Below, piece after piece: positions 12,030 through 24,358 of a stretch of DNA of 33,789 nucleotides. The notes under the pieces were generated by a model that worked only from the letters and a program-made list of their open reading frames with translations, ran no database searches and was not told the DNA's origin. The position numbers and the translations under genes were made by a program. The stretch's first letter is position 1, and each line of letters opens with the position of its first letter. Source of the DNA: an alpha proteobacterium AAP81b (GTDB lineage: Bacteria; Pseudomonadota; Alphaproteobacteria; Sphingomonadales; Sphingomonadaceae); the NCBI GenBank assembly GCA_001295935.1, contig LJHX01000010.1, forward strand, positions 1 to 33,789, written 5' to 3'.

Positions 12030-12251
12030 ATGTCCGCCGAAACCATCGCCGAAATCCTCAAGATCCTCGCCGGTCTGCCCGCCGACAAGGCGGCGCAGGT
12101 GCGCGCCATCCTTGCCGAAGCCGGCTATGACCTGACGCCGCGTGCCGAGCCGGTGACGATCACCGCCGGCCTGATCCTGGTTCTGCTGCTGGCGGTGGTC
12201 GTCGGCATCGCGCTGGCCTGGGTGATCGTCGAGCTGATCAACCGGCGCTGA
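12030..12251 (+). CDS. Small single-pass membrane protein of unknown function
   Basis: A 73-residue protein missed by a length-based search. Residues 1-40 form an amphipathic helical stretch (TIAEILKILAGLPADKAAQVRAILAEAGYDLTP). A strongly hydrophobic helix (ITAGLILVLLLAVVVGIALAWVIV, split across residues about 44-67) follows, and the tail is positive (NRR). The topology is probably a cytoplasmic N-terminal helix bundle partner with a C-terminal membrane anchor. GGAG at 12020-12023 with six-base spacing supports the ATG at 12030. It lies between the MFS carrier and the dehalogenase operon. I recognise no family; it might be an accessory peptide or an unrelated housekeeping protein. Confidence 0.65.
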   Translation: MSAETIAEILKILAGLPADKAAQVRAILAEAGYDLTPRAEPVTITAGLILVLLLAVVVGIALAWVIVELINRR

Positions 12252-12258
12252 GCCACGC

Positions 12259-12288
12259 TTGACGCTGTGCTCCAGAACTGGCACGTCT
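12259..12288 (+). promoter_or_regulatory. Possible promoter of the dehalogenase operon
   Basis: TTGACG at 12259-12264 is a good -35 box. About 17 bases later the sequence CACGTC or ACGTCT is a poor -10 match, so the exact -10 is uncertain. The inverted repeat at 12279-12295 covers the -10 area, which would suit repression. Confidence 0.4.
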
Positions 12289-12295
12289 CGTGCCA
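12279..12295. promoter_or_regulatory. Candidate operator: perfect inverted repeat TGGCACG-TCT-CGTGCCA
   Basis: Two perfect seven-base arms (12279-12285 and 12289-12295) surround a three-base centre, 16 bases upstream of the dehalogenase ATG and over the likely -10 region. Read on the minus strand it begins TTGGCAC and contains TGGCA-N7-TGCCA, the same core and spacing as the repeat at 21560-21580 between the two sulfatase operons. A dimeric repressor, perhaps the TetR protein encoded at 23759, is the simplest binder; binding is inferred only. Confidence 0.65.
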
Positions 12296-12311
12296 ATAAC
12301 GGGAGTGCGCC

Positions 12312-13217
12312 ATGCAGATTTTGCGAACCCCTGACGAACGCTTCGTCGGGCTCGTCGGCTATGACTTCGCGCCGCACTACAGCGAGGTCGCCGACCGCGC
12401 CACCGGCCAGGGCCTGCGCATCCACCGCATCGACGAAGGCCCCGCCGGTGCAGCGCCGGTGCTGCTGATGCACGGCGAGCCGAGCTGGAGCTACCTCTAC
12501 CGCAAGTTCGTCGCCCCGCTGACGGCGGCCGGTCACCGCGTTGTCGCCCCCGATCTCATCGGCTTCGGCAAGTCCGACAAGCTCGCGGCGCGTGGCGATT
12601 ACACCTTCGAACGCCATGTCGAATGGATGTCGGACTGGCTGACCGGGCTCGATCTCAACGGTATCACGCTGTTCTGCCAGGATTGGGGCGGGCTCATCGG
12701 GCTGCGGCTGGTCGCGGCGTTTCCCGATCGCTTCGCGCGACTGGTCATCGCCAACACCGGGCTACCGATCGGCACGGGTTCTTCGCCAGGCTTCGACCAG
12801 TGGCTGACCCTCAGCCAGACCATCCCGCAATTCCCGGTCGGCGGCATCGTCAACATGGGGACGTCGCGCGAACTGACGCCGGCCGAAATCGCCGCCTATG
12901 ACGCGCCCTTTCCAGACGAAAGCTACAAGGAAGGCGCGCGGCAATTCCCGACGCTGGTGCCGGTGACGCCCGGACATGCTTCGGTCGCTGAGAACATTGC
13001 TGCCTGGAAAGTGCTCGAAGCTTTCGACAAGCCGGTACTGACCTGCTTCTCCGACAACGACCCCGTCACCAAGGGCGGCGAGGCGGCGATCAAGGCGCGC
13101 ATCCCCGGGGCAGCGGGCCAGGCCCATACCATCGTCGCCGGCGGGCACTTCCTGCAGGAGGATTGCCCCGAACTGCTGTGCGGCCTGATCAACGATTTCA
13201 TCGCGAAGGACAAGTGA
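12312..13217 (+). CDS. Haloalkane dehalogenase (alpha/beta hydrolase, HLD-I type)
   Basis: Hydrolyses carbon-halogen bonds of haloalkanes to an alcohol and halide in the cytoplasm. The 301 residues show the oxyanion segment [13 protein letters not shown] with Glu56, the nucleophile Asp124 with the halide-binding Trp125 in CQDWGG, a second Trp at 164 (GFDQWL), the acid Asp250 in [11 protein letters not shown] and the base His279 in [10 protein letters not shown]. The numbering of Asp124 and Trp125 coincides with Xanthobacter DhlA, and the acid placed after strand 7 is the HLD-I arrangement. There is no signal peptide. GGGAG precedes the ATG. It is the first gene of an operon with overlapping downstream starts, under the inverted repeat at 12279-12295. 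Substrate range is not predictable. Confidence 0.92.
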
Positions 13218-13639
13218 TGCGCGTCGTCAACGAAGTCATGCCGCGGCCCGAAGTCGCCAAGGAATTCTTCTTCGGCGGCACCCACGACGGCCCGATGGTG
13301 ATGGTCAACCTCTTGAAGTTCAAGCCGCTTGCCGAGTATCCCGACGGCCGCAACCCCGGCATGACCGGGCGCGAAGCCTATGAAATCTACGGCCGCGCCG
13401 TCGTCGAATGCCTCAAGCTCGTCGGCGGCAAGCCGCTCTATTCGGGCGCCGTCACCGGCGTCATCCTCGGCGACATCGAGGAGCATTGGGACATGATCGC
13501 GCTCGCCGAATATCCGAGCCCGCAGGCGATGGTCCAGATGGTCGGCCTGCCCGAATATCAGGGAATCGAGATCCACCGCTTCGCCGGGCTCGCCGGGCAA
13601 TTGAACATCCGCACGGCGCCCGGCGTCTTCGCGGCATGA
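13217..13639 (+). CDS. DUF1330-like small protein
   Basis: A 140-residue protein beginning [21 protein letters not shown]. The pattern GPMVMVNLLKFKPLAEYPDG, then AYEIYGRAVVECLKLVGGKPLYSGAVTGVILGDIEEHWDMIALAEYPSPQAMVQMVGLPEYQ, fits the dimeric ferredoxin-like alpha/beta barrel of DUF1330 proteins, for which no general reaction is known. The start is set by the TGATG junction: its A is the last base of the dehalogenase stop. A longer start at 13163 would overlap the dehalogenase by 55 bases. The stop overlaps the next gene in ATGA. Its fixed place in the operon suggests it handles or binds a dehalogenation product, but that is a guess. Confidence 0.82.
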   Translation: MRVVNEVMPRPEVAKEFFFGGTHDGPMVMVNLLKFKPLAEYPDGRNPGMTGREAYEIYGRAVVECLKLVGGKPLYSGAVTGVILGDIEEHWDMIALAEYPSPQAMVQMVGLPEYQGIEIHRFAGLAGQLNIRTAPGVFAA

Positions 13640-14286
13640 GCCTGGCCTTCGACCTGTTCTGGTCGTTCCGCTCGCCCTATTCCTATCTGGTGACGCCGCG
13701 GCTGCGCGAGCTGGTCGCGACACATGACGTCACCTGCAATGTTCGCGTCGTCTATCCGATCGCCGTCCGCCAGGCCGATTTCTTCTCGAACGCCGATCCG
13801 CTGTGGGTCCTCTATCTGATGAAGGACACGTATCGGACGGCGCAGTATCTGGGCATGGACTATGGCTGGCCGCGCCCCGACCCGGTGCGGATGGACCCGG
13901 CAACGCGCAGCTACCCCAAGGAACAGCCGCACATCCACCGCCTCAGCCATTTGGGCGTCGCCGCCACCGAACGCGGCCGCGGGCTCGATTTCCTCTTCGA
14001 AGTCTCGGCGCTGATCTGGAACGGCAAGACGCAAGATTGGCACGAGGGCGATCACCTCGCCGAGGCCGCCGCCCGCGCCGGGCTCGACCTCGCCGCGATG
14101 GACGCCGCCGTCGCCGCCGATTTCGCCGGCTATGCCGCCAAGGTCGAAGCCAACCAGGTCGCCCAGCGCGAGGCGGGGCATTATGGCGTGCCGCTGATGG
14201 CAGTGGATGGCGAGCCGTTTTTCGGCCAAGACCGTTTCGATCAACTGGTCTGGCGGCTCAAGCAGAAGGGCATGCAGCCGCGCTGA
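13636..14286 (+). CDS. DsbA-family / 2-hydroxychromene-2-carboxylate isomerase-like protein
   Basis: A thioredoxin-fold, kappa-GST-like protein of 216 residues. The N terminus MSLAFDLFWSFRSPYSYLVTPRL has the SPYSYL segment in which the serine binds glutathione in HCCA isomerases. The C-terminal GVPLMAVDGEPFFGQDRFDQL is the matching cis-proline and FxGQDR signature. There is no CxxC motif, so it is not a disulfide oxidoreductase. Known relatives isomerise ring-opened aromatic intermediates with glutathione; here the substrate is unknown. Its ATG overlaps the stop of the DUF1330-type gene in ATGA. No signal peptide is seen, so it is probably cytoplasmic. A GST-like gene follows after 29 bases. 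Confidence 0.85.
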   Translation: MSLAFDLFWSFRSPYSYLVTPRLRELVATHDVTCNVRVVYPIAVRQADFFSNADPLWVLYLMKDTYRTAQYLGMDYGWPRPDPVRMDPATRSYPKEQPHIHRLSHLGVAATERGRGLDFLFEVSALIWNGKTQDWHEGDHLAEAAARAGLDLAAMDAAVAADFAGYAAKVEANQVAQREAGHYGVPLMAVDGEPFFGQDRFDQLVWRLKQKGMQPR

Positions 14287-14315
14287 GGCCGGGCGACGTC
14301 GCAGGAGAGCATCGC

Positions 14316-15461
14316 ATGGCCACACCCTATCGCCTGTTCGGCACGCCGGGATCGCTCTACACCGCCAAGGCGCGCAGCTATCTGCGCAAGCAGCATGTCG
14401 ATTTCGTCGAAATGCCCGCCGCCTCGGCGGAATTCGCCGCGCTGTTGCCAACGATAGCCCGCTGGATCATCCCGGTGTTGACGACACCGGCGGGCGAGGT
14501 GCTGCAGGATGGCAGCGTCATCATCGATCATTTCGAAGCCGCCGGCCCCCGCCTGTCGGCATTTCCGACAACACCCATCCACCGCGCCGTCGCCGCGATC
14601 TTCGAACTCTTCGGCGGCGAGGGGCTGCTGCGCCCGGCGATGCATTACCGCTGGAACTTCGATGACGTGAACCAGCCCTTCATCGCCAATGATTTCGTCG
14701 CGGCGCTGGCCCCGGCGGGGGCGCCACAGGCGGTCAAGGACCAGGTCTTCGGCGGCGCGGCGCGGCGGATGCGCGCCGCCATGGCGGCCTTCGGCGTTAC
14801 CGAGGCGAGCATCCCGGCGATCGAGGCAAGCTATGCCGACTTCCTGGCGCGGCTCGACGCCCATCTGGCGACGACGCCCTATCTGCTCGGCGGCCACCCG
14901 ACCCTCGGCGATTATGGCCTGATCGGGCCGCTGTTCGCCCATCTCGGCCGTGATCCCGTGCCGCGCCAGTTGATGCAGCGCACCGCCTGGAACGTCTTTC
15001 GCTGGACCGAGCGGATGAACGCCCCCGAAGCCCAGGCCGATGGCCTTGGCCCCGCCGACGGCGGGCTGTTCGCCGACGACGCCATCCCCGACACGCTCGT
15101 GGCGCTGCTGCGCTTCATCGCCGAGGATTTTCTCCCCGAGCTGACCGCGCATGTCGCCTTCGCCAACCACTGGCTCGCCGAGCGCCCCGACGACATCACC
15201 GGCACCTCGGGGCTCGCCAACCCCGCCAATCGCACGATCGGCGTGGCGCGCTTCGCATGGCGCGGCCATGAGATCGCAACGATGGTGATGCCCTATCGCT
15301 TCTGGCTGCTGCAGAAAGTCCAAGCGACGGCGGCGGCGTGCGACGATCCCCGGCTCGGCGAATTGCTTGCCGCTACCGGGCTGGCGCCGCTGCTGACCCT
15401 GCGGACGACGCGGCCGGTCGAGCGGCGCGGGCATCTCGAAGTCTGGGGGGCGGCGCGGTAG
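14316..15461 (+). CDS. Extended glutathione S-transferase-like protein
   Basis: A 381-residue cytoplasmic protein. Residues 1-80 are a thioredoxin-type GST domain (YRLFGTPGSLYTAKARSYLRK, then WIIPVLTTPAGEVLQDGSVIIDHFE, the cis-Pro and SxxI signature). Residues about 95-235 form the helical GST domain (PYLLGGHPTLGDYGLIGPLFAHL). A further 140 residues, much longer than a normal GST, have no known motif. AGGAG before the ATG at 14316 fixes the start; the longer open frame upstream overlaps the previous gene. It is the last gene of the dehalogenase operon and converges with the propeller gene seven bases away. A distant relative is encoded at 18493-19497. The chemistry (conjugation, isomerisation or reductive dehalogenation) cannot be set from sequence. 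Confidence 0.82.
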   Translation: MATPYRLFGTPGSLYTAKARSYLRKQHVDFVEMPAASAEFAALLPTIARWIIPVLTTPAGEVLQDGSVIIDHFEAAGPRLSAFPTTPIHRAVAAIFELFGGEGLLRPAMHYRWNFDDVNQPFIANDFVAALAPAGAPQAVKDQVFGGAARRMRAAMAAFGVTEASIPAIEASYADFLARLDAHLATTPYLLGGHPTLGDYGLIGPLFAHLGRDPVPRQLMQRTAWNVFRWTERMNAPEAQADGLGPADGGLFADDAIPDTLVALLRFIAEDFLPELTAHVAFANHWLAERPDDITGTSGLANPANRTIGVARFAWRGHEIATMVMPYRFWLLQKVQATAAACDDPRLGELLAATGLAPLLTLRTTRPVERRGHLEVWGAAR

Positions 15462-15468
15462 CGCGGCG

Positions 15469-16662
15469 TTACGCGGAGAACACCCGCGCCACCCGGCTCA
15501 TCGAGCAGAAATACAGGTCATTGTCCCAGCCCGGGGAGGGGAAGACGACGCCCTGCGTCCAGCCGCCGACGTATGTACGGCTGCGCGTCGCGCCGGTCAG
15601 GATATCGAGGACGATGACGTGCTCGCCGCCGGCGCCATAATCGTTGGTGACGATGCCGCCGTCGCCGGTCAGCAGCATGTGGCTGGCGGCGCCGAGACGC
15701 TCGCGGCGCCAGCGGGGGCGCAAGCGGCGGGCCTGCCAGTCGAAGGCCTGGATGACGCGATTGGCGCTGTCATAGGCGATGATCAGCCCACGCGCCGGAT
15801 CGACCAGTGGCGGGTTGGTGATGCTGCCGCCGGGCAGGCCCGAGACTTCGACGGCTTCGTGGTCGGCGGCGTCGGTCAGCGAAATTCGCAACAGCCGGTT
15901 TGGCGTTGGCGCAACGCCGCGGCCGATCATGCTGGTGCGGTAGCGGTGATGGCCATTGTCCATGAACCAGGCGTCGGCGCCGTCGAGGACGACGTCCCAG
16001 CCGTAGGTGTTTGCGGTTCCGGCGAGATAATCCCAGGCCCAGTCCTCGTCGCGAACCAGCATCGCGCCGGTCCAGCGCCAGCGCAGGATGCTGCGTGTGC
16101 CGACGAGGTAGACCGTGTCGCCGATCGCGCTCAGTCGGGCGATGCTCGGCTCGGGACTTTGCGCCTGTGCAACGATACGCATTGCATTTGTGTCGATGAC
16201 GGAGAGCAGCGCCGGCTCGCGGTCCGACAGGTTCTTGGTGACGATCAGCCCGTCGCCGAGACTGACGAAACTGTTCCATGGCGCCGCGACCGGCAGTTCG
16301 AGCGCCGCCTTGACCCGGCAGTCGCGATCGAGGCGATGCACCCAGCGGCCATAGACACTTACCAGATCGCCACCTTCGACCACGGCCAGCCCGCCGGGCC
16401 ACATCGGGCCGCCCTTGAGGCGCGGCGAGCGGGCGAGGGGTTTGAGTGTCACCGGGTCGATGCGTTCGACACGCGCGAAGGTCGGCATGCCGAAATTGCT
16501 ACGCAGGGCGTCATGGGTGAGGAGGAAGACCTCGCCGGGGTCGCCGAGCACGGTCATCGTCGACATGAACGTCGCGCGGCTTGTGGCGGTGAGCGTTGCG
16601 GAAAGGCGAAGCTCGGTCGCGGCGAGGCGCTGCGCGCCGCCGTCTTCGCTGGGCCAGATCAC
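15469..16662 (-). CDS. Beta-propeller-like protein of unknown function
   Basis: A protein of 397 residues (if the GTG at 16662 is used) made of repeated beta-strand units. Examples are GGDLVSVYGRWVHRLDRD, GDTVYLVGTRSILRWRW, GGIVTNDYGAGGEHVIVLDILTG and NDLYFCSMSRVARVFSA, the style of NHL/PQQ-like propellers. There is no signal peptide or catalytic motif that I recognise. The GTG at 16662 is preferred because GGGAGGGGAG, the arm of a palindromic repeat, ends five bases before it; the alternative GTG at 16725 would overlap the sulfatase and translate the repeat. It is the last gene of the minus-strand sulfatase operon. Binding of a sugar, sulfated ligand or partner protein is possible but not shown. 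Confidence 0.7.
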   Translation of the reverse strand: MIWPSEDGGAQRLAATELRLSATLTATSRATFMSTMTVLGDPGEVFLLTHDALRSNFGMPTFARVERIDPVTLKPLARSPRLKGGPMWPGGLAVVEGGDLVSVYGRWVHRLDRDCRVKAALELPVAAPWNSFVSLGDGLIVTKNLSDREPALLSVIDTNAMRIVAQAQSPEPSIARLSAIGDTVYLVGTRSILRWRWTGAMLVRDEDWAWDYLAGTANTYGWDVVLDGADAWFMDNGHHRYRTSMIGRGVAPTPNRLLRISLTDAADHEAVEVSGLPGGSITNPPLVDPARGLIIAYDSANRVIQAFDWQARRLRPRWRRERLGAASHMLLTGDGGIVTNDYGAGGEHVIVLDILTGATRSRTYVGGWTQGVVFPSPGWDNDLYFCSMSRVARVFSA

Positions 16663-16666
16663 AACG

Positions 16667-16694
16667 GCTCCCCTCCCGCAAGCGGGAGGGGAGC
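16667..16694. repeat. Perfect palindrome GCTCCCCTCCCGC-AA-GCGGGAGGGGAGC between sulfatase and propeller genes
   Basis: Arms of 13 bases at 16667-16679 and 16682-16694 are perfectly complementary, with two central bases. One end touches the sulfatase stop codon. The type is familiar as a scattered palindrome in sphingomonad genomes, though copy number cannot be judged here. It could form a strong hairpin in the operon message and partly end transcription; there is no T run, so it is not a standard terminator. On the minus strand its arm supplies a ribosome-binding sequence for the propeller gene. Confidence 0.85.
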
Positions 16695-18496
16695 TAGCGC
16701 CGCCGTCGCCACGCAACGATCCCACCGACCACCAGCCCCAACACCCCGATCAGCCATGGCGCCATTGCCACCAGCGACCGCTTCAGCCGCGGCACCAGCA
16801 GGTCGCGCATGGCGTTGTCGGCGACCTGTTTCGGCGCCTCATAGCCCGGCGGCATGTCGAGCACCTGCTCGGCGCGCGCATAGGCGGCGTAATCGGCGGC
16901 CATCGCCCGCGCGCGATCGGGCATCGCGGCGCTGAGATCGCGCGTCTCGGCGGGGTCGCGCCTGATGTCGTAAAGCCGCCAGACGCTGTCGCCATAGGGC
17001 TTGAGGTTCCGCACCAGCTTGTAGTCGCCCTTGAACAGCACGGCGTTGCCGGCGAGCTCATAGCCGAGGGGTTCGTCGGCAGGGTGGACGCTGGTCGCGG
17101 CGCCGGTCAGCAGCGGCACCAGGCTGTGGCCCTGGATCGGCTCGACGGCGCGGCCCTGCCAGGTCTCGCCGGGGGCCGCGACGCCGGCGGCGGCGAGCAG
17201 CGTCGGCGTCACGTCCATCACCTGGGCGAAGGCCGGCTGCACCGCGCCGGCGCGCCACGCCCGGTTGCCCGGCCAGGCGATAATCAGCGGCACGCGCAAG
17301 CCCCCCTCGCTGGCGGTGAATTTGTAGCCGCGCAGCGGCGACGCGGCGGCGCTGGCGAAGCTGGTGCCGATGGCGGTCAGGCTGCCCGGCCGGCCCTGTT
17401 GGTCGGGGCGCTGGTTGTAATAGGCGCGCGCGAAAATGCCGTTGATCCCGGCCATCGGGTCGATGCCCTCGGGGCCATTGTCCGACAGGAAGACGAAGAT
17501 GGTGTTGTCGTACTGGCCGCTGGCCTTGAGGTGGGCGACGAGGCGGCCGACCTCGCGGTCCATCGCCGTCGCCATGCCGGCATAGGCCTCGAAGGCGCGC
17601 GACCGCTGCTTCTGTTCGGCGGGGCTCAGTGTCGCCCAGTCGGTGGTCGAGTCCATGGTGACGAGGCCGACATCGGCGGGCATCACCCCGGCGGCGATCG
17701 TCCGCGCCCGCCGCGCTGCGCGCAGTGCCGTCCAGCCGGTGTCGTATCGACCTCTATAAGCGGCGATATCGGCATCGGGCGCCTGCACAGGGATATGGTT
17801 GGCGAGGAAGTTAATCGACGCGAAGAACGGCCGGCGCGGGTCGCCAGTGTCGATATACTGGACCGCCTTGTCGATAATGAACCGCGACGAATAGAAGTCC
17901 TTGGGCAGCTTCGCCGGCCGGTCGTCTTCGCTCCAATCGGCATGGTCGTAGAGCAGCAGATTGGGCTTGTCCTCGAAATTGTCGGCGCCCGATTGCGACA
18001 GCGCAAAGGCATGATCGTAACCGCGGGCGCGCGGCAGCTTGTCGCGCGTCTTGCCGAGGTGCCATTTGCCGCTGAAGGCAGTGCGATAGCCCGCCGCCTG
18101 GAGCATCTGGGCGATCGTCACGACGCGGTCGTTGATGACGGCGTCATAGCCGGGCTTGCCCTGATGCGCTGGCGGGATCGTCTCGGGCATGTTGCCGAGC
18201 CCGGCGCGATGGTGGCTGACGCCGGTCTGCAACATCGCGCGCGTCGGCGCGCAGCTGGCGGCGACGTGGAAGTTCGAAAAGCGCGTGCCGGCGCGGGCGA
18301 GGGCGTCGATGTTGGGGGTGGCGATCTCGCTGCCATAGGCGCCGACATCGCTGAAGCCCCAATCGTCGGCGAGGAGAACGACGATGTTGGGGCGCGCGGC
18401 CAGCGCGGGGGTGGCGGTGGTGAGGAGCAACCCCGCCAAGAGAAGTCGCCATCCCTCCCCCTCAAGGGGGAAGGGATCAGCGCAGTTGGATTTCAC
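16694..18496 (-). CDS. AtsA-like arylsulfatase (type I, formylglycine), exported with C-terminal membrane anchor
   Basis: Hydrolyses sulfate esters outside the cytoplasm. The 600 residues include a hydrophobic signal segment ([18 protein letters not shown], residues 16-33), metal ligands in LLADDWG and the formylglycine site Cys82 in [15 protein letters not shown] and [10 protein letters not shown] complete the core. The stretch [20 protein letters not shown] closely resembles Pseudomonas AtsA (CSPTRSML..G..HH). Residues about 576-595 form a membrane helix ending in RRRR, so the enzyme is probably tethered to the inner membrane facing the periplasm. The start is a GTG overlapping the previous stop (GTGA) with GGAG upstream. 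A palindromic repeat (18451-18477) is translated between the start and the signal segment. No sulfatase-maturing enzyme gene is in the window. Confidence 0.9.
18451..18477. repeat. Imperfect palindrome inside the 5' end of the AtsA-like gene
   Basis: ATCCCTCCCCCT and AGGGGGAAGGGAT pair over 12 positions with one bulged base and a two-base loop. On the minus strand it is translated as roughly PFPLEGEG near residues 8-15 of the sulfatase. It is the same style of C-run/G-run palindrome as 16667-16694, although the sequences differ. Confidence 0.75.
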
Positions 18497-19497
18497 CCCC
18501 GCTCCAGCGGTTCGAGGCAGCCGGTCTGCCCAAGCAGCGGCGTCAGCTCATCCCGCGCCCCGCCAGGCAGCCCGGCCCACAACCGCCGCAGCTCACCAAG
18601 GCACTTCGCCTGATATTTGAACACCCCCTGCTCATAGGGGTGCCCCAGCGCGGTGATCGCGAACGTCTCCGCTCCCGCCGCCAGCGCCGCGGCATTGGCT
18701 TCGAGGAACGGAAAATACAGCGCCCCGCACAGTTTCAGCAGTTCGACCACCACCGCGGCCGGCGGCGTGCCCGGCGCGTCCCACTCGCCCTCCACCCCCG
18801 ACATGTCATCGACATGCAGCAGCCAGCGAAACGCGTAAGGGTAATCGGCGCGCATCATCGCCTCCGGCGTCGGATCGACCCCCAGCTGCGAGATCTGGCC
18901 ATAGATGCCGAATTCGGCGAGGCTCGGCCGCGTCCCGAACAGGCAGAAGCGGTTGACGACATGCGCTTCCAATGCCGCCAGCGTGGCGCGCGTCGACGCC
19001 TCGATCAGCGGGAAGTTCGCCTCGGTGCAGCCGACCAGCGCCATGCGCCCGACCTGGCGGGCGCGGAACGCCTCGGCGGCCCCCTGCGAGGTCGCCAGCC
19101 CGCCACCGCCCAGCGAATCGAACGCCAGCCATCGGCTCATCTGGATCTGGTCGATTTCGCGCAGCCAGCGATAGCCGAACATTGCCTTGGTCAGCCATTC
19201 GTCGGCGAAATCCTCGATCAGCGCGGCCAGGAACGCCTGCGCCGGATCGGGCGGCACGATCGAGCGCTCGCCCGGATGGCGGGCTTCGAGATCGTGGATC
19301 AGCGGCGTCGAATCATTGTGGAAGCTGCCATCGGGATATTCGACGATCGGGATCACCGGCGCCTTCACCTTGCCGGCGGTCTTCGCCATCGCCGCCATGC
19401 CGATGTGCCATTCGTGCGGCAGGCGGCGATAGCGCAGCGCCGCGCGGATCTTCATCGAATAGGGCGAGCCGAGCGCGCCGTAGATTTTGTAGGTCAT
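18493..19497 (-). CDS. Extended glutathione S-transferase-like protein (second copy type)
   Basis: A 334-residue protein. Residues 1-80 are a GST thioredoxin fold: [21 protein letters not shown], then [27 protein letters not shown] (cis-Pro and DSTxLI signature). The helical domain follows ([23 protein letters not shown]), and there is a C-terminal extension of about 120 residues. Organisation resembles the protein at 14316 (N-terminal GS-x-Y-x-x-K, LGG/FGTRPxLxxxGxxGxxxxLG, then FRW), but overall identity looks low. The ATG at 19497 shares a base with the preceding stop (TGATG), and its stop overlaps the sulfatase GTG, so it is the third gene of a coupled operon. Substrate unknown. Confidence 0.85.
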
Positions 19498-20429
19498 CAG
19501 AAGCCACCCCCCGCCAGCGCACCCATCCGCCCGCAGATGGCGTGAAACTCCGCCACCGTTTCCTCGATGATCGCGCGCACCGGCTTGACCTCGCCGATCA
19601 GTCCGGCGGTCTGGCCGGCGAGACCGACCGCGGCCTCCATGTCGCCGCCGAAATAGAGGTCGAGGATGCGCGCGAAGGTATCGGGCGGCATCAGCCCCGC
19701 CTCGGCGATCGCCTTGGTGCGCTCGGTCCGCAGCGCGCGGATGCACGGGCTGGCCTTGCGGTTGAGGAAGAGCGTCCCCGTCTCGGTCGCATCGACGATC
19801 GCCTGCTTGTAATTGGCGTGCACCGGGCTTTCGGCGGCCGAGACGAAGCGCGTCCCCATCTGCACCCCTTCGGCGCCCGCGGCGAACGCCGCCGCCATGC
19901 CCTTGCCGTCGGCGATGCCGCCCGCGGCGATCATCGGCACATCGGTCACCCGGCGGATCGCCTGGAGCAGGACGAGCGTCGAGACTTCCTCGGGGTTCTT
20001 GAAGCCGCCGCCCTCGGCGCCCTCGACAACGAGGCCGTCGACCCCGGCGGCGACGCATTTCAGCGCCGTCTCGACCGTCGGCACGGCGTGGTAGACGATG
20101 ATGCCGGCGGCCTTCAGCGGCGCGATGAACTTTGCCGGGCTGCCCGCCGAGGTGGTGACGAACTTGACCGGGCTGTCGCAGATGAAGCGCAGCATCGCGT
20201 CGTCCTTCAAGAAGCGGATCGGCAGATTGACCCCGAAGGGCGCCGCGGTCAGCGCGCGCATCTTGAGGATCTCGGCCTTGCACGCCTCGGTCTCGCCCGA
20301 CGACGTCTCGATGATGCCGAGGCCGCCGGCTTCGCAGACGGCGCTGGCGAGCTGCGAGCGCGCGATCCAGCCCATCGGCGCCTGGACGATCGGATAACGC
20401 GCGCCAGTGTGGGCAAGAACACGGTTCAT
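19497..20429 (-). CDS. NMO/FabK-like FMN oxidoreductase lacking the usual catalytic histidine
   Basis: A TIM-barrel flavoprotein of 310 residues annotated in most databases as nitronate monooxygenase or 2-nitropropane dioxygenase-like. Family marks are [13 protein letters not shown] at the start, [19 protein letters not shown], the phosphate-binding [29 protein letters not shown] and the late [11 protein letters not shown]. In genuine NMO and FabK the segment EGxEAGGH carries the catalytic histidine; here it reads [10 protein letters not shown], with Phe. Oxidation of nitronates is therefore doubtful, and a reductase or different oxidase role is likely. Its ATG overlaps the MBL gene's stop by four bases (ATGA), and its stop is shared with the GST-like gene, placing it firmly inside the operon. 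Confidence 0.85.
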
Positions 20430-21505
20430 GGATTGAAACTTTCCCGAATGATGGCGGTGCCGCCGGCCGGCAGCGAAAACACCATGCCATCTTCGGCGAT
20501 GGTGATCGGCCCCTCAAAATGCTTGGGCGCGTCGCCGAGGAAGGCCGGATAGGCGAAGGCGAGCGGTACCGGCGGGACGATATGGCTGAGCACCAGCTGG
20601 CGGACGCCGGCCCCTTTCGCCGCGTCGGCGGCTTCTTCCGGCGTCGCGTGATAGCCGCGGATGTCGCGGGTGATCTGGGCGACATTGGCCTGGCCGCGCG
20701 CTGCGAGCGCATCGGTGATGATCGCGCCCAATTTCGGCTGCAGCGCCTCATGGATCAGCAGGTCGGCGCCCTTGGCCGCGGCGACGAGACTCGGCGAGGC
20801 GGCGGTATCGCCGCTCAGCACGAGGCTGCGGCCCTTGTAGTCGAAGCGATAGCCGACCGCCGGGGTGACGGGACTGTGATTGACCGGGAAGGCGGTGATG
20901 CGGACGCCGTCGGCGTCGAAGACCACCACCGGCTTGTCGGCAACGGCGAAGGGCATCGCCACCCCGCCGGCGCCGCCGGGCGGCACGATGCGCGGACCGT
21001 GATGGGCGACGCGATAGCCGTTGTCGAGGCCATAGGCGGTGTTGAAGCCGGCGACGACCTGCTCGACTCCCGGGGGTCCGTGGATCGGCAGCGGGCGCGT
21101 GTGGGTGCCGGCGGTCCAGCGCAGCAGCATCAGCGTGCCGAGACCGTCGAAATGGTCCGAATGGAAGTGGGTGAGGAAAACGCCGTCGATCCGCCCCATG
21201 GGTACGCCCAATTGCCCGAGCTTGCGCGGCCCGCCGTCGCCGGCGTCGACGACGAACATGTGCTTACCGGCGATGACGAGGTTGCAGGCTTCGGCGCGGC
21301 TCGGGTCGGGCAGCGGCGAGCCGGTGCCGCAGAAGACGATGTGGAGGCCATCGGGCAGCGTCGCAGTGTTGTCGCGCCCGACGCGCGAAGCGACGACGCG
21401 GCCGAGTGCCCAAGTGCCGAGCTCGCGCTGGAAGACGATCGCGCCGGCGACGAGAATGCCGACGATTGCCGCCAGCGCCAGCGCGATCCGCAGCGAGCGT
21501 CGCAT
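20426..21505 (-). CDS. Membrane-anchored MBL-fold metallohydrolase (RNase Z/AtsA-MBL-like)
   Basis: A 359-residue two-metal hydrolase. Residues 5-26 form an N-terminal membrane anchor or uncleaved signal ([19 protein letters not shown]), so the enzyme should face the periplasm. The metal site is His113-Phe-His115-Ser-Asp117-His118 in [12 protein letters not shown]. Later ligands lie in [17 protein letters not shown] and VLSHIVPP. The start of the domain, [22 protein letters not shown], is of the RNase Z-like subgroup that also contains the MBL-type arylsulfatase of Pseudoalteromonas carrageenovora. With a membrane anchor, tRNA processing is unlikely; ester or sulfate-ester hydrolysis is a fair guess. 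GGGGAGA precedes the ATG. It is the first gene of the five-gene minus operon, under the divergent promoter region. Confidence 0.87.
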
Positions 21506-21544
21506 GTCCGTCTCCCCGATCGGCCGCTTTCGACCCTTTCAGAC

Positions 21545-21573
21545 ATCATGCCCCGTCGTTTTGGCACTTGCAA
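21545..21573 (-). promoter_or_regulatory. Candidate promoter of the minus-strand sulfatase operon
   Basis: On the minus strand, TTGCAA (21573-21568) and CATGAT (21550-21545) are 17 bases apart, giving four of six matches in each box. The predicted start would lie about 30 bases before the MBL start codon. The operator-like repeat at 21560-21580 covers the -35 box. Confidence 0.5.
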
Positions 21574-21580
21574 TGCCAAA
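21560..21580. promoter_or_regulatory. Candidate shared operator: TTTGGCA-CTTGCAA-TGCCAAA
   Basis: Two perfect seven-base arms (21560-21566, 21574-21580) flank a seven-base spacer, in the middle of the 155-base gap between divergent operons. The core TTGGCAC-N6-TGCCA matches the repeat upstream of the dehalogenase (12279-12295, minus-strand reading). The low-GC make-up stands out from the surroundings. The TetR gene in the plus-strand operon (23759) is the obvious candidate binder. Confidence 0.7.
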
Positions 21581-21582
21581 TC

Positions 21583-21611
21583 TTGCAACGGCGGGATTTC
21601 GGGTCTAGGCT
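21583..21611 (+). promoter_or_regulatory. Candidate promoter of the DUF4345-sulfatase-tetR operon
   Basis: TTGCAA at 21583-21588 and TAGGCT at 21606-21611 are 17 bases apart; the -10 is weak (three of six). It leads to a transcript starting about 40 bases before the ATG at 21661. The -35 begins three bases after the operator-like repeat. Confidence 0.4.
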
Positions 21612-21660: not shown

Positions 21661-22038
21661 ATGACAATGGCAATCCGGATCGCGATCGGGCTGATGGCGG
21701 CACTGTTCATCCTGATCGGGCTGAATTTCCTGGCCAATCCCGTCGACGCCGCCAAGGGCTTCTTCGTCGTCGCCGACGGCAGCCAGGGCCTCGCCACCAT
21801 CCGCGCCGATTTCCCGGGCTTCTTCATCGGCTCGGCGGTGTTCGCCCTGCTCGGCGCGGTGCGCGGCCAGGCGGCGCCGCTCTATGTGCCGATGCTGATG
21901 CTGGCGATCGCGCTGACCGGACGCTTCGTCAGCTTGGGCGCCGACGGCGTCGGGCCGATGGCGATCCCGCCGATGGTCGTCGAAGCGCTGGGCATCGCGC
22001 TGATGGTCGTCGGCACCCGCGTCCTCAAGCGCGGCTGA
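21661..22038 (+). CDS. DUF4345-like small integral membrane protein
   Basis: A 125-residue inner-membrane protein with four hydrophobic segments: AIRIAIGLMAALFILIGLNF, then FPGFFIGSAVFALLGAV, LYVPMLMLAIALTGRFVSL and PMVVEALGIALMVVGT. The arrangement with a first-helix NFL-PVDAAKGF and an R-F-(V)-S segment in helix 3 resembles DUF4345 proteins, whose role is unknown. A purine-rich GGGGGGGAAG lies upstream of the ATG at 21661; an internal ATG at 21667 is possible. It is first in a plus operon, 14 bases before the sulfatase. It could help export, anchor or sense something for the sulfatase, but nothing in the sequence proves that. Confidence 0.75.
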   Translation: MTMAIRIAIGLMAALFILIGLNFLANPVDAAKGFFVVADGSQGLATIRADFPGFFIGSAVFALLGAVRGQAAPLYVPMLMLAIALTGRFVSLGADGVGPMAIPPMVVEALGIALMVVGTRVLKRG

Positions 22039-22052
22039 GGGGAGACACGAAA

Positions 22053-23747
22053 ATGGCGAAATTCCTGCGCACCGCCGGGCGAGTCCTGCTCGGCACCGTC
22101 GCGGCGGTCGGCGTCGGGCTCTATGCCGGCGGCGACTATATCCGCCTCCACATGGCCGGCTGGCTCGGCGGCCGCACCGCCCCCAATCACCCCGTCGACT
22201 GGGCGCAGGGTCCGGCCGCGCCGCCCGCCGCGGCGCGTCCGCCAAATGTCATCCTGATCCTCGCCGACGACCTCGGCTACAATGACGTCAGCATCACCGG
22301 CACCGGCCCCGGCGGCATGAAGACCCCCAATATCGACGCGATCGGCGAGCAGGGGGTGACCTTCGCCAATGGCTATGCCGGCAACGCCACCTGCGCGCCG
22401 TCGCGCGCCGCGCTGATGTCGGGGCGCTATGCGACGCGCTTCGGCTATGAATTCACGCCGACCGACACCCGCCTGCCGTCATGGTTTCCGACGAGCGTCT
22501 TCCGCCCCGACCTGATGTTCGCCCGCAACATCGCCGAGTTCAAGAGCGAGTCGGAGCACAAGGCGATCTTCGACGAAGCCGCGGCGAAGCGCGCCGGGCC
22601 GCCCGGCGGCAAGGGTCTGCCGGCCAGCGAGGTCACCATTGCCGAACAGATGCAGTCACGCGGCTATCACACCGTCCATCTCGGCAAATGGCATCTCGGC
22701 GAAGCCAAGGGCATGCGCCCCGAGGACCAGGGCTTCGACGAATCGCTGGGCTTCATCATCGGTGGCCAGAAGTTCCTGCCCGACGACGATCCCAATGTCG
22801 TCAATTCGCGCCAGGATTTCGACCCGATCGACAAGTTCCTCTGGGCGAACCTGCCGTACAGCGTCCAGTTCAACGGCTCCCCGCGCTTCGCCCCCGATCG
22901 CTATATGACCGATTATCTGACCGACAACGCTGTCCAGGCGATCAAGGCCAATCGCAACCGCCCCTTCTTCATGTACCTCGCCTACAATGCCCCGCACACA
23001 CCGTTGCAAGCGCTGAAGTCCGACTATGACGCCCTGGCGAACATCAAGGACCACCGTCTCAGGGTTTATGCGGCGATGGTCCGCGCCGTCGATCGCGGTG
23101 TCGGCAAGGTCATGGCCGAACTGAAAGCCCAGGGCCTCGACGAGAACACCATCGTCATCTTCACCTCGGACAATGGCGGCGCCAATTACATCGGCCTGCC
23201 CGAGATCAACCGGCCCTTCCGCGGCTGGAAGGCGACCTTCTACGAAGGCGGCATGCACGTGCCCTTCCTGATGCGCTGGCCCGGCCATATCGCGCCGGCG
23301 ACCAAGTTCGCGCCGATGATCAGCCATTTCGATATCTACGCCACCGCCAGCGCCGCCGCCGGCGCGCCGCTGCCGCGCGATCGCACCGTCGATGGCGTCG
23401 ACCTGCTGCCCTTCGTCACCGGCAAGACGGCGGGGGTTCCCCATCAGACGCTGTTCTGGCGGTCGGGGGCCTATCGCGTCGTCCGCGATGGCGACTGGAA
23501 GCTCCAAATCCTCGAACGCCCCGTGCAGAGCCTGCTTTTCAACCTCGCCACCGACCCGACCGAGCGCCGCGACCTTGCCGCGGCGCAACCGGCAAAGGTC
23601 GCCGAACTCACCGCCAAGCTCGCCGCGCACGATGCCGCACAGATGAAACCGGCGTGGGAGGCGCTCATTCATTCGCCGATTGCCATCGACACGCCGCTGG
23701 GGGTGAAACCCCGGCCCGGCGATGCCTATATCTATTGGTCAAACTGA
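22053..23747 (+). CDS. Type I (formylglycine) sulfatase, membrane-anchored
   Basis: A 564-residue sulfatase acting in the periplasm on sulfate esters. Residues about 8-27 are an N-terminal membrane segment (AGRVLLGTVAAVGVGLYAGG), without a clear cleavage site. The catalytic core shows VILILADDLGYNDVS with metal ligands Asp72 and Asp73, the formylglycine motif Cys114-Ala-Pro-Ser-Arg118, GKWHLGEAKGMRPEDQGFDE and FTSDNGGANYIG, and a C-terminal domain with WRSGAYRVVRDGDWKLQI. The consensus CxPSR is intact, so it should be activated by a formylglycine-generating enzyme encoded elsewhere. It differs clearly from the AtsA-like sulfatase at 16694 and is closer to N-acetylgalactosamine/arylsulfatase A-type proteins. 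GGGGAGA precedes the ATG. The TetR gene begins 11 bases after its stop. Confidence 0.93.
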   Translation: MAKFLRTAGRVLLGTVAAVGVGLYAGGDYIRLHMAGWLGGRTAPNHPVDWAQGPAAPPAAARPPNVILILADDLGYNDVSITGTGPGGMKTPNIDAIGEQGVTFANGYAGNATCAPSRAALMSGRYATRFGYEFTPTDTRLPSWFPTSVFRPDLMFARNIAEFKSESEHKAIFDEAAAKRAGPPGGKGLPASEVTIAEQMQSRGYHTVHLGKWHLGEAKGMRPEDQGFDESLGFIIGGQKFLPDDDPNVVNSRQDFDPIDKFLWANLPYSVQFNGSPRFAPDRYMTDYLTDNAVQAIKANRNRPFFMYLAYNAPHTPLQALKSDYDALANIKDHRLRVYAAMVRAVDRGVGKVMAELKAQGLDENTIVIFTSDNGGANYIGLPEINRPFRGWKATFYEGGMHVPFLMRWPGHIAPATKFAPMISHFDIYATASAAAGAPLPRDRTVDGVDLLPFVTGKTAGVPHQTLFWRSGAYRVVRDGDWKLQILERPVQSLLFNLATDPTERRDLAAAQPAKVAELTAKLAAHDAAQMKPAWEALIHSPIAIDTPLGVKPRPGDAYIYWSN

Positions 23748-23758
23748 CGGGAAACGAT

Positions 23759-24358
23759 GTGACCGCCTCTGCCGCCGCCCTTGCCGGCGAAAGCCAACCG
23801 GCCCCCGACGGCCGCCGCCGCCGCTCGCAGCAAAGCCGCGATCGCATTATCGCCGCGATGCTGGCGCTGGTCGAGGAGGGTGCCATCACGCCCTCGGCCG
23901 AGGATGTCGCGGCGCGCGCCGGCGTCGGGCTGCGCAGCGTCTTTCGCCATTTCAACGACATGGAAAGCCTGTACGGCGAAATGGCGGTGCGGCTGGCGGG
24001 GCTCTACGAACATGGCCTGGCGCCCTTCGCCAGCAGCGACTGGCGCGGGCGGATGGCCGAGATGACCGACCGCCGCGTCGGCATCTTCGAACGGCTGCTG
24101 CCCTTCAAGCGCGCCGCCGACGCCCATCGCCACGAAAGCGCGACGATCGCTGCCCAGCACGATGCCGTGCTGGCGCTGCTGCGCACCCGGCTGCTGGCGG
24201 TGCTGCCCGCCGAAATCGCCGGCGACGCGCCGCGCGTCGAGGCGCTCGACATGCTGCTCTCGGCCGACAGCTGGGCGCGGCTCCGCCTGCAGCAGCGTCT
24301 CGACCCCGCGGCCGCACGCGCCGTGCTCGATCGCCTGCTGGCGCCGCTGCTCGCCTGA
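23759..24358 (+). CDS. TetR/AcrR family transcriptional regulator
   Basis: A 199-residue DNA-binding protein. After a polar, Arg-rich leader (PDGRRRRSQQSRDRIIAAM), the helix-turn-helix lies at about residues 43-66 (ITPSAEDVAARAGVGLRSVFRHF), with the typical R-H-F end and FNDMESLYGEM. The C-terminal helical ligand domain is diverged, as usual, and its ligand is unknown. The start is uncertain: GTG at 23759 is taken because it lies 11 bases after the sulfatase stop; a longer reading from 23654 overlaps the sulfatase. Being third in the operon started at 21661, it would control its own expression if it binds the repeat at 21560-21580, and possibly the matching repeat at 12279-12295. Confidence 0.87.
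   Translation: MTASAAALAGESQPAPDGRRRRSQQSRDRIIAAMLALVEEGAITPSAEDVAARAGVGLRSVFRHFNDMESLYGEMAVRLAGLYEHGLAPFASSDWRGRMAEMTDRRVGIFERLLPFKRAADAHRHESATIAAQHDAVLALLRTRLLAVLPAEIAGDAPRVEALDMLLSADSWARLRLQQRLDPAAARAVLDRLLAPLLA

Follow-up and report, generated by a model that had tools for sequence, protein, structure and literature searches.

The 33,789-nucleotide contig LJHX01000010.1 of the alphaproteobacterium AAP81b, referred to below as the window, carries a palindrome upstream of a haloalkane dehalogenase gene (site A) and again between two divergent sulfatase operons (site B). By sequence comparison, sites A and B are one motif. We conclude that this palindrome is very probably the operator of the TetR-family protein encoded at positions 23759-24358 (hereafter TetR), acting as the autoregulated repressor of one dispersed regulon that includes sites A and B and a third site, C, on another contig. 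The motif, its positions, its conservation, and its association with this TetR subfamily emerge from the comparison with other genomes; binding and repression by TetR, a ligand, and joint induction are what we infer. The regulon is new and of a known kind. The earlier interpretation of the window holds; to it are added site C and a wide phylogenetic range. The draft genome (3.45 Mb) consists of 207 contigs, one of which makes up the whole window.

Sites A and B share one motif

A sequence-only reading had located TGGCACG-TCT-CGTGCCA at 12279-12295 and TTTGGCA-N7-TGCCAAA at 21560-21580, with TGGCA-N7-TGCCA common to both. We found both palindromes exactly at these positions, and the window contains only two exact copies of the common pattern. 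In the whole genome, the exact pattern occurs nine times, compared to three times for the reversed pattern. Long coding frames contain five of the nine copies; the intergenic ones are sites A and B and a third on contig C157, and the position of the ninth is unclear. When up to two mismatches are allowed, 23 matches are seen in the window versus 16.9 expected. Since five of nine copies are inside genes and the window matches number 23 versus 16.9, the bare pattern is only mildly over-represented, and on pattern counts in this genome alone, sites A and B would be a modest coincidence. An unsupervised dyad search chose the conserved place as the top dyad in just 7 of the 27 regions upstream of a dehalogenase. 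We regard neither the bare pattern counts nor the unsupervised dyads as decisive. A search of 60 genomes with a 23-base pattern and three mismatches returned mostly background, the controls being as frequent as the hits in many genomes. It is the comparison with relatives, not the pattern counts, that argues for a shared site.

Dehalogenase homologues were collected from 60 relatives, and 29 upstream regions were read; one region at a contig edge (L025) had been excluded beforehand. Site-bearing regions were chosen by eye. A clear palindrome was present upstream of 15 of the 29 dehalogenase homologues, and the palindrome was also present in 13 of 25 regions upstream of the metallo-beta-lactamase-fold hydrolase (metallo-hydrolase) that adjoins site B; the copy in G022 (L055) is degenerate. 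The full motif, approximately ATTATKRCAC-N5-GTGYCATAAT, is symmetric and 25 bp long, with the consensus ATTATGGCA-N7-TGCCATAAT and variable inner positions. In the window, it corresponds to predicted operators, both annotated without strand, at 12275-12299 (site A, core TGGCACGTCTCGTGCCA at 12279-12295, 16 bp before the dehalogenase start) and at 21558-21582 (site B, core TGGCACTTGCAATGCCA at 21562-21578, between the divergent operons). At site A, the dyad keeps a fixed spacing in relatives to TTGAC, a -35-like box of the dehalogenase promoter (12259-12263, plus strand). The distance is 15 bp in 13 of the 15 site-A regions and 14 bp in one, and one region has no TTGAC. For 11 additional dehalogenase sites, taken from other genomes or from paralogous clusters and including records of Sphingomonas, Hyphomicrobiaceae, and Porphyrobacter, the distance was 15 bp in eight cases and 9 and 10 bp in two, and one had no TTGAC.

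Profiles built from either group of sites detected the other group. The B profile and alignment A1 were made without L041, whose core is identical to that of the window's own site B, and without the degenerate L055; A1 comprises 26 sites, each entered in both orientations. The B-site profile gave its top rank to the A site in every one of the 15 site-bearing dehalogenase loci, scoring from 10.7 (own site A) to 31.5 bits, and reached at most 13.0 in the remaining 14 of the 29 loci. Conversely, the A-site profile placed the B site on top in 12 of 13 site-bearing loci, the miss being L055 (12.5). It also found one further B-type site, in G026 (L061), that had been overlooked by eye, and scored no higher than 13.1 in the remaining 11 of the 25 metallo-hydrolase loci. 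A profile made without this genome and its nearest relative ranked site B (29.9 bits) and site A (15.7 bits) ahead of the next place in the window (6.4 bits). In three genomes (G018, G008, and G021), dehalogenase and metallo-hydrolase lie on different contigs, and the site is kept at both. The earlier proposal of one regulon over three operons is thus supported by conservation at fixed positions and by profiles that find each other's sites.

Genes and gene starts around the sites, including the nine exact copies, were predicted by a crude frame-composition rule. A set of 100 loci holds 108 distinct sites scoring 20 bits or more; 14 of these lie inside a gene predicted in this way, and 99 are within 400 bp of a predicted start. 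Hits inside genes, which the sequence-only reading had named as a warning sign, are therefore a feature of the bare 10-base pattern and not of the longer motif.

The site accompanies a TetR subfamily

The predicted repressor at sites A, B, and C is encoded on the plus strand (23759-24358) by a gene that comes third in the operon beside site B; this gene call and the dehalogenase start at 12312 both hold. The TetR_N helix-turn-helix domain (PF00440) scored 24.1 bits, narrowly above the cut-off of 24.0. The protein has a conserved GLRSVFRHF region, and profile comparison recovered three regulators in the PDB. The AlphaFold2 model of the monomer (predicted local distance difference test score, 88.7) contains ten helices, and its top fold matches in the PDB are TetR-type regulators, with E values of 1.5e-4 and weaker and query template modeling scores of 0.48-0.71 among the matches listed. 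The gene product is predicted from this model to have a TetR-repressor fold with a C-terminal ligand and dimer domain. Searching a plasmid collection with the TetR protein gave no match there.

In relatives, the cluster comes with homologues of the TetR gene. In G007, the TetR gene adjoins the dehalogenase gene, with the operator between them. A TetR-dehalogenase pair is located elsewhere in the genomes of G001, G012, and G015, where each gene of the pair is preceded by a site (for the G015 dehalogenase, this is L036, already among the 15), and G012 has an additional site before a GST-sulfatase operon on a different contig. In G014 and G019, which belong to the same genus and have no metallo-hydrolase there, the site precedes a DUF4345-sulfatase-TetR operon. 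Three genomes of the same genus also contain a separate cluster (L150, L151, and L159) of another TetR, a dehalogenase, a 211-residue protein without Pfam match, a homologue of protein P0003 (see below), and a sulfatase; operators precede TetR and dehalogenase in these clusters.

A TetR alignment, made without L084 (internal stop codon) and L096 (partial), was compared with 84,980 species genomes and yielded 215 relatives, of which the best 80 loci with 1,273,768 bases were kept. These loci contain 88 places of at least 20 bits, versus none for a reversed-column profile and 0 to 2 for ten column-permuted profiles. When the nine loci holding any of the 28 listed sites were removed, 78 sites of at least 20 bits were left in 50 of 71 loci, with 0 in the control. 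A site lies within 3 kb of the TetR start in 57 of the 80 loci. The comparison of regions upstream of tetR orthologues, which the sequence-only reading had suggested, showed that the site closest to the TetR match is upstream of it and no more than 200 bp away in 16 of the 80 loci. Site-bearing named strains include Polymorphobacter glacialis CGMCC 1.15519, Sphingomonas echinoides ATCC 14820, and Pontixanthobacter aquaemixtae KCTC 52763.

A further test started from the dehalogenase. From 385 genomes drawn across the class, 32 others matched at an E value of 1e-60, and 29 yielded loci. The TetR subfamily (E ≤ 1e-44) was found in nine of the 29 genomes, weak TetR matches (8e-32 to 1e-24) in four, and none in 16. 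A site of at least 18 bits at the TetR or dehalogenase locus was present in eight of the nine genomes with TetR (the miss being G408) versus none of the 20 others (p = 2e-6). For the dehalogenase locus only, the numbers were four of nine versus none of 20 (p = 0.005). In 25 of the 29 scanned dehalogenase loci, no place reached 18 bits; thus, the site goes with TetR rather than with the dehalogenase. The sites upstream of TetR genes in other arrangements and the co-occurrence both support the initial assignment of TetR as the regulator.

Observations against the assignment and loci without the site

Several observations weigh against TetR as the repressor of one regulon with these sites. In the co-occurrence test, the cut-offs (TetR E value of 1e-44, site of 18 bits) were fixed after the results had been seen. 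Genomes with TetR had two or three loci scanned and the others one (16 of 20) or two (four), and three matching genomes that got no locus (G062, G111, and G262) were not scanned. In the four genomes with a site at the dehalogenase locus, it lies upstream of the dehalogenase in just two (G150, 69 bp; G284, 225 bp); in G382 and G346, it is located elsewhere in the locus. The window's own site A is the weakest of the three operators in this genome: the B-only profile puts it fourth in the window with 10.7 bits, and its dyad alone is not significant (p = 0.35 versus mononucleotide shuffles). A whole-genome model scan, in which 150 of 628 candidates were scored, reported sites B and C only, up to an E value of 10, and not site A. 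Two hits in the same genus fall outside the set, namely G021:C2:61753 (PEP-CTERM, 32.4 bits) and G018:C11:11107 (16.8 bits). Finally, sites of at least 20 bits are absent from 22 of the 80 TetR loci, including the eight loci of the clade described below; some of the 22 are short contigs.

The runs of model R1 covered 37 genomes, without G023-G035, and scored at most 150 of 180-2,334 first-look candidates per genome. Because R1 missed both G015 sites that the profile detects, its silence is weak evidence. Model hits with E < 0.5 in four genomes from other families of the order without this TetR (G036, G043, G045, and G048) are background.

A Sandarakinorhabdus-type clade also speaks against the assignment. 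It keeps the operons and a TetR homologue that is 44-47% identical, with the same recognition-helix letters, and has no site at these operons (L186, L197, L199, L201, L203, L205, L214, and L217 among the 80 loci). Conservation in relatives that keep the operons, whose absence the sequence-only reading would have taken as refutation, was borne out by fixed positions in one large set and failed in this clade, where neither site is present. The tree unites the eight TetR proteins of the clade with a support of 100 and places them on a long branch; according to a warning of the tree program, the joining of this group to the L181-L183 group could be spurious. It seems that this clade lost the operators while its TetR diverged quickly. 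We looked for an alternative operator in the clade and rejected it: the aligned region holds a remnant-like TGACAATGGA block, and no new palindrome was seen by eye. In the five mapped clade loci (L186, L199, L201, L203, and L217), the transporter match stops 31-37 bp before the dehalogenase match. No palindrome was found upstream of the dehalogenase in 11 genomes of the same genus. Over the tree, presence of the site (at least 18 bits) changes at least 11 times; therefore, the site was gained or lost fairly often, or it was missed at contig ends.

Proposed mechanism and alternative explanations

In the mechanism that we propose, a TetR dimer would recognize approximately ATTATKRCAC-N5-GTGYCATAAT. 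At site A, TetR would cover the region just downstream of the dehalogenase -35 box. At site B, a single operator would lie on the predicted minus -35 box and against that of the plus operon, to which tetR itself belongs. Site C, on the other contig, precedes the gene for a small, probably membrane-bound protein. Without ligand, TetR would block these promoters and its own. A substrate or intermediate would release TetR, and dehalogenase, GST and thioredoxin-fold proteins, metallo-hydrolase, reductase, and the two sulfatases would be switched on together, probably to break down some compound. Operators on or beside -35 boxes and autoregulation of the tetR operon match the requirements of a ligand-released repressor.

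The operator could be real and shared and yet be bound by another regulator encoded elsewhere, with the TetR gene as only one of its targets. In line with this idea, the site is known from sequence and not from binding, one clade has TetR and no site, and sites A and C are not directly beside the TetR gene in this genome. However, the site follows the TetR subfamily across families and gene arrangements, it occurs within 3 kb of the TetR start in the 57 of 80 loci mentioned above, and no such site turned up at the dehalogenase locus in the 20 genomes without TetR, so that we consider another regulator improbable. That the TGGCAC-N5-TTGC-like letters form a sigma-54 (-24/-12) promoter and no operator is hardly credible. 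Sigma-54 promoters have the spacing GG-N10-GC, which TGGCA-N7-TGCCA includes. Yet the GG survives in just 8 of 15 site-A sequences (12 of 13 at site B) and the GC in 10 of 15 (10 of 13 at site B); symmetric flanks and the fixed TTGAC box are kept instead, and site B serves two opposite directions. We rejected the sigma-54 promoter because the -24 GG is not conserved; neither this GG nor the -12 GC is invariant in the site-A sequences.

Sites A and B might also represent an RNA hairpin, that is, a leader structure or terminator, or palindromes that look alike by chance. Site A indeed forms a perfect 7-bp stem with a 3-base loop near the start codon. The location of five of the nine exact genomic copies inside genes, the non-significant dyad of site A, and the best-dyad rank of the conserved place in only 7 of 27 regions point in the same direction. 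These possibilities nevertheless appear very unlikely, given that the middle letters vary in relatives whereas position and flanks are conserved, and that both operons have their predicted start points downstream of site B. On account of this position, we judged a hairpin or terminator at site B unlikely.

If the palindrome is the operator of TetR, a loose set of enzymes becomes one testable unit that consists of the dehalogenase, two Cys-type sulfatases, GST-like proteins, and metallo-hydrolase together with their own switch. Identifying a ligand that frees TetR at site B would give a lead on the substrate, and the operator profile can add genes to the pathway, such as those for the site C protein, DUF2855, DUF1330, and the TonB receptor. 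A substrate bearing both a sulfate ester and a halogen and leading finally to acyl chemistry would match this gene set; chlorosulfolipids form one class of compounds with both groups. It is conceivable, though rather unlikely, that we are dealing with a dedicated, widespread regulon of Alphaproteobacteria and some Burkholderiales for natural compounds with halogen and sulfate ester, for example algal chlorosulfolipids. TetR would then sense the compound or an intermediate, the sulfatases would remove the sulfate, and the dehalogenase would remove the halogen. If this were true, the dehalogenase group would gain a natural substrate class and a physiological inducer.

Known regulators offer partial parallels. 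KstR, which according to its entry titles functions in cholesterol degradation, shares the TetR fold, and KstR chains are among the structural matches. KstR acts on palindromic operators at several scattered operons and controls its own gene; its operator differs from the present one. The enzymes are different as well, and the KstR rows of the fold match show 17-20% identity. DhaR, the TetR-type regulator of the haloalkane dehalogenase gene dhaA of Rhodococcus, likewise places a TetR-type protein over a haloalkane dehalogenase, yet in an actinobacterial setting with alcohol and aldehyde dehydrogenases and no known sulfatases. Nothing on DhaR was among the matches listed in the literature search. 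In the portion of PMC12442346 consulted, a BetI pair controls choline-O-sulfate catabolism in Alphaproteobacteria; like TetR in our proposal, these regulators govern sulfate-ester catabolism in this class, but their substrate is choline sulfate (PMC12442346). BetI regulators are of the TetR type. The TetR regulons shown in the consulted portion of PMC5343134 are those of FabR, FadP, LiuQ, PsrA, and RutR, and the word dehalogenase is absent from that portion. No description of this regulon was among the matches listed in the literature search (titles and abstract starts).

Site C and further candidate targets

Scanning the genome and its relatives, as proposed in the sequence-only reading, revealed sites upstream of dehalogenase, metallo-hydrolase, sulfatase, and GST genes and brought the number of sites in this genome to three. 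The additional one, site C (C157:40652-40668), is intergenic and precedes the gene for P0003, a small protein of 148 residues that appears membrane-like by eye. P0003 has matches in eight of 37 genomes, seven of them, including this genome, at 54% identity or more. In these seven, the best place of each fetched locus is a site of at least 18 bits, located at or just before the start in four (G000, which is this genome, G006, G017, and G018) and between TetR and a divergent operon in three paralogous clusters. The eighth genome, G002 (32% identity), has no site at its P0003 locus (best score, 4.8). The gene preceding site C (L007:363-1463) encodes a luciferase-like monooxygenase (PF00296).

In a set that includes the training genomes, 124 predicted genes start within 130 bp of a site, and 78 of them belong to families of the window: 19 dehalogenases, 17 metallo-hydrolases, 16 TetR proteins, 9 DUF4345 proteins, 6 GST proteins, 9 sulfatases, and 2 DsbA-like proteins. 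Within the 80 named loci, a site is near the start of 62 of 239 core-family genes versus 36 of 828 others, with many non-first genes of operons counted as misses. Other genes that start at such sites elsewhere encode a TonB receptor, DUF2855 and DUF1330 proteins, an FMO-like oxygenase, and a beta-oxidation enzyme. In two Sphingomonadaceae clusters, two operators 25 bp apart are arranged head to tail before a predicted TonB-dependent receptor (L235:3594-3643 and L243:3497-3546); the same clusters have operator pairs 52 bp apart upstream of the metallo-hydrolase. After the G021 site at C2:61753 (L152:7753-7777, 32.4 bits), the predicted start of a PEP-CTERM protein follows at a distance of 116 bp; the 15-kb stretch contains no other regulon family, and this site represents either chance or an extra target.

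Genes of the operons

The gene at 12312-13217 (plus strand) encodes, by family membership, a haloalkane dehalogenase with predicted activity on a halogenated substrate. It scored 442 bits for the NCBIfam subfamily NF002043, above the curated cut-off of 265, and its best match in the PDB is the haloalkane dehalogenase 5esr (E = 7.3e-135). The stretches DWGG, DNDP, and GGHFLQED, which we take to have catalytic roles, align with solved dehalogenases; the protein presumably belongs to subfamily I. Downstream on the plus strand follow genes for a DsbA-like thioredoxin-fold protein (PF01323, 13630-14286), probably in the same operon, and a GST-like protein (PF13417, PF13410; 14307-15461), both with approximate starts. 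A DsbA-like homologue is located 3' of the dehalogenase in 13 of 22 loci showing a dehalogenase. Between transporter and dehalogenase, the window has an open frame of 73 residues without Pfam match (12030-12251). The transporter match stops 90 bp (G004) and 72 bp (G019) before the dehalogenase match, which leaves no room for this frame in these genomes.

As the sequence-only reading had it, site B separates divergent sulfatase operons. The minus operon starts with the metallo-hydrolase gene (20426-21505) and continues with genes for a FabK-like reductase (19497-20429; TIGR03151, 240.7 bits, below its cut-off of 453.1), a second GST-like protein (18493-19500, start approximate), and sulfatase 1 (16694-18496). 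On the plus strand, genes for a DUF4345 protein (21661-22038) and sulfatase 2 (22053-23747) precede tetR. By eye, we predicted a minus promoter, TTGCAA-N17-CATGAT (21545-21573), with its -35 box inside site B, and a plus promoter, TTGCAA-N17-TAGGCT (21583-21611), that abuts site B. The minus-promoter layout recurs as TTGYAA-N17-CATSAT in L041, L042, and L043 and is looser or differently spaced in several others. Sulfatases 1 and 2 matched PF00884 with E values of 6.4e-62 and 1.1e-56 and show the C-x-P-x-R signature in its Cys-type forms CAPTR and CAPSR, respectively. By signature and PF00884 membership, both fit the type I (formylglycine) class. A homologue of the formylglycine-generating enzyme (FGE) was found in this genome. 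In a Parvibaculum cluster with an operator, an FGE homologue (L207:19073-20041) follows the sulfatase gene, consistent with maturation of the sulfatases of the regulon.

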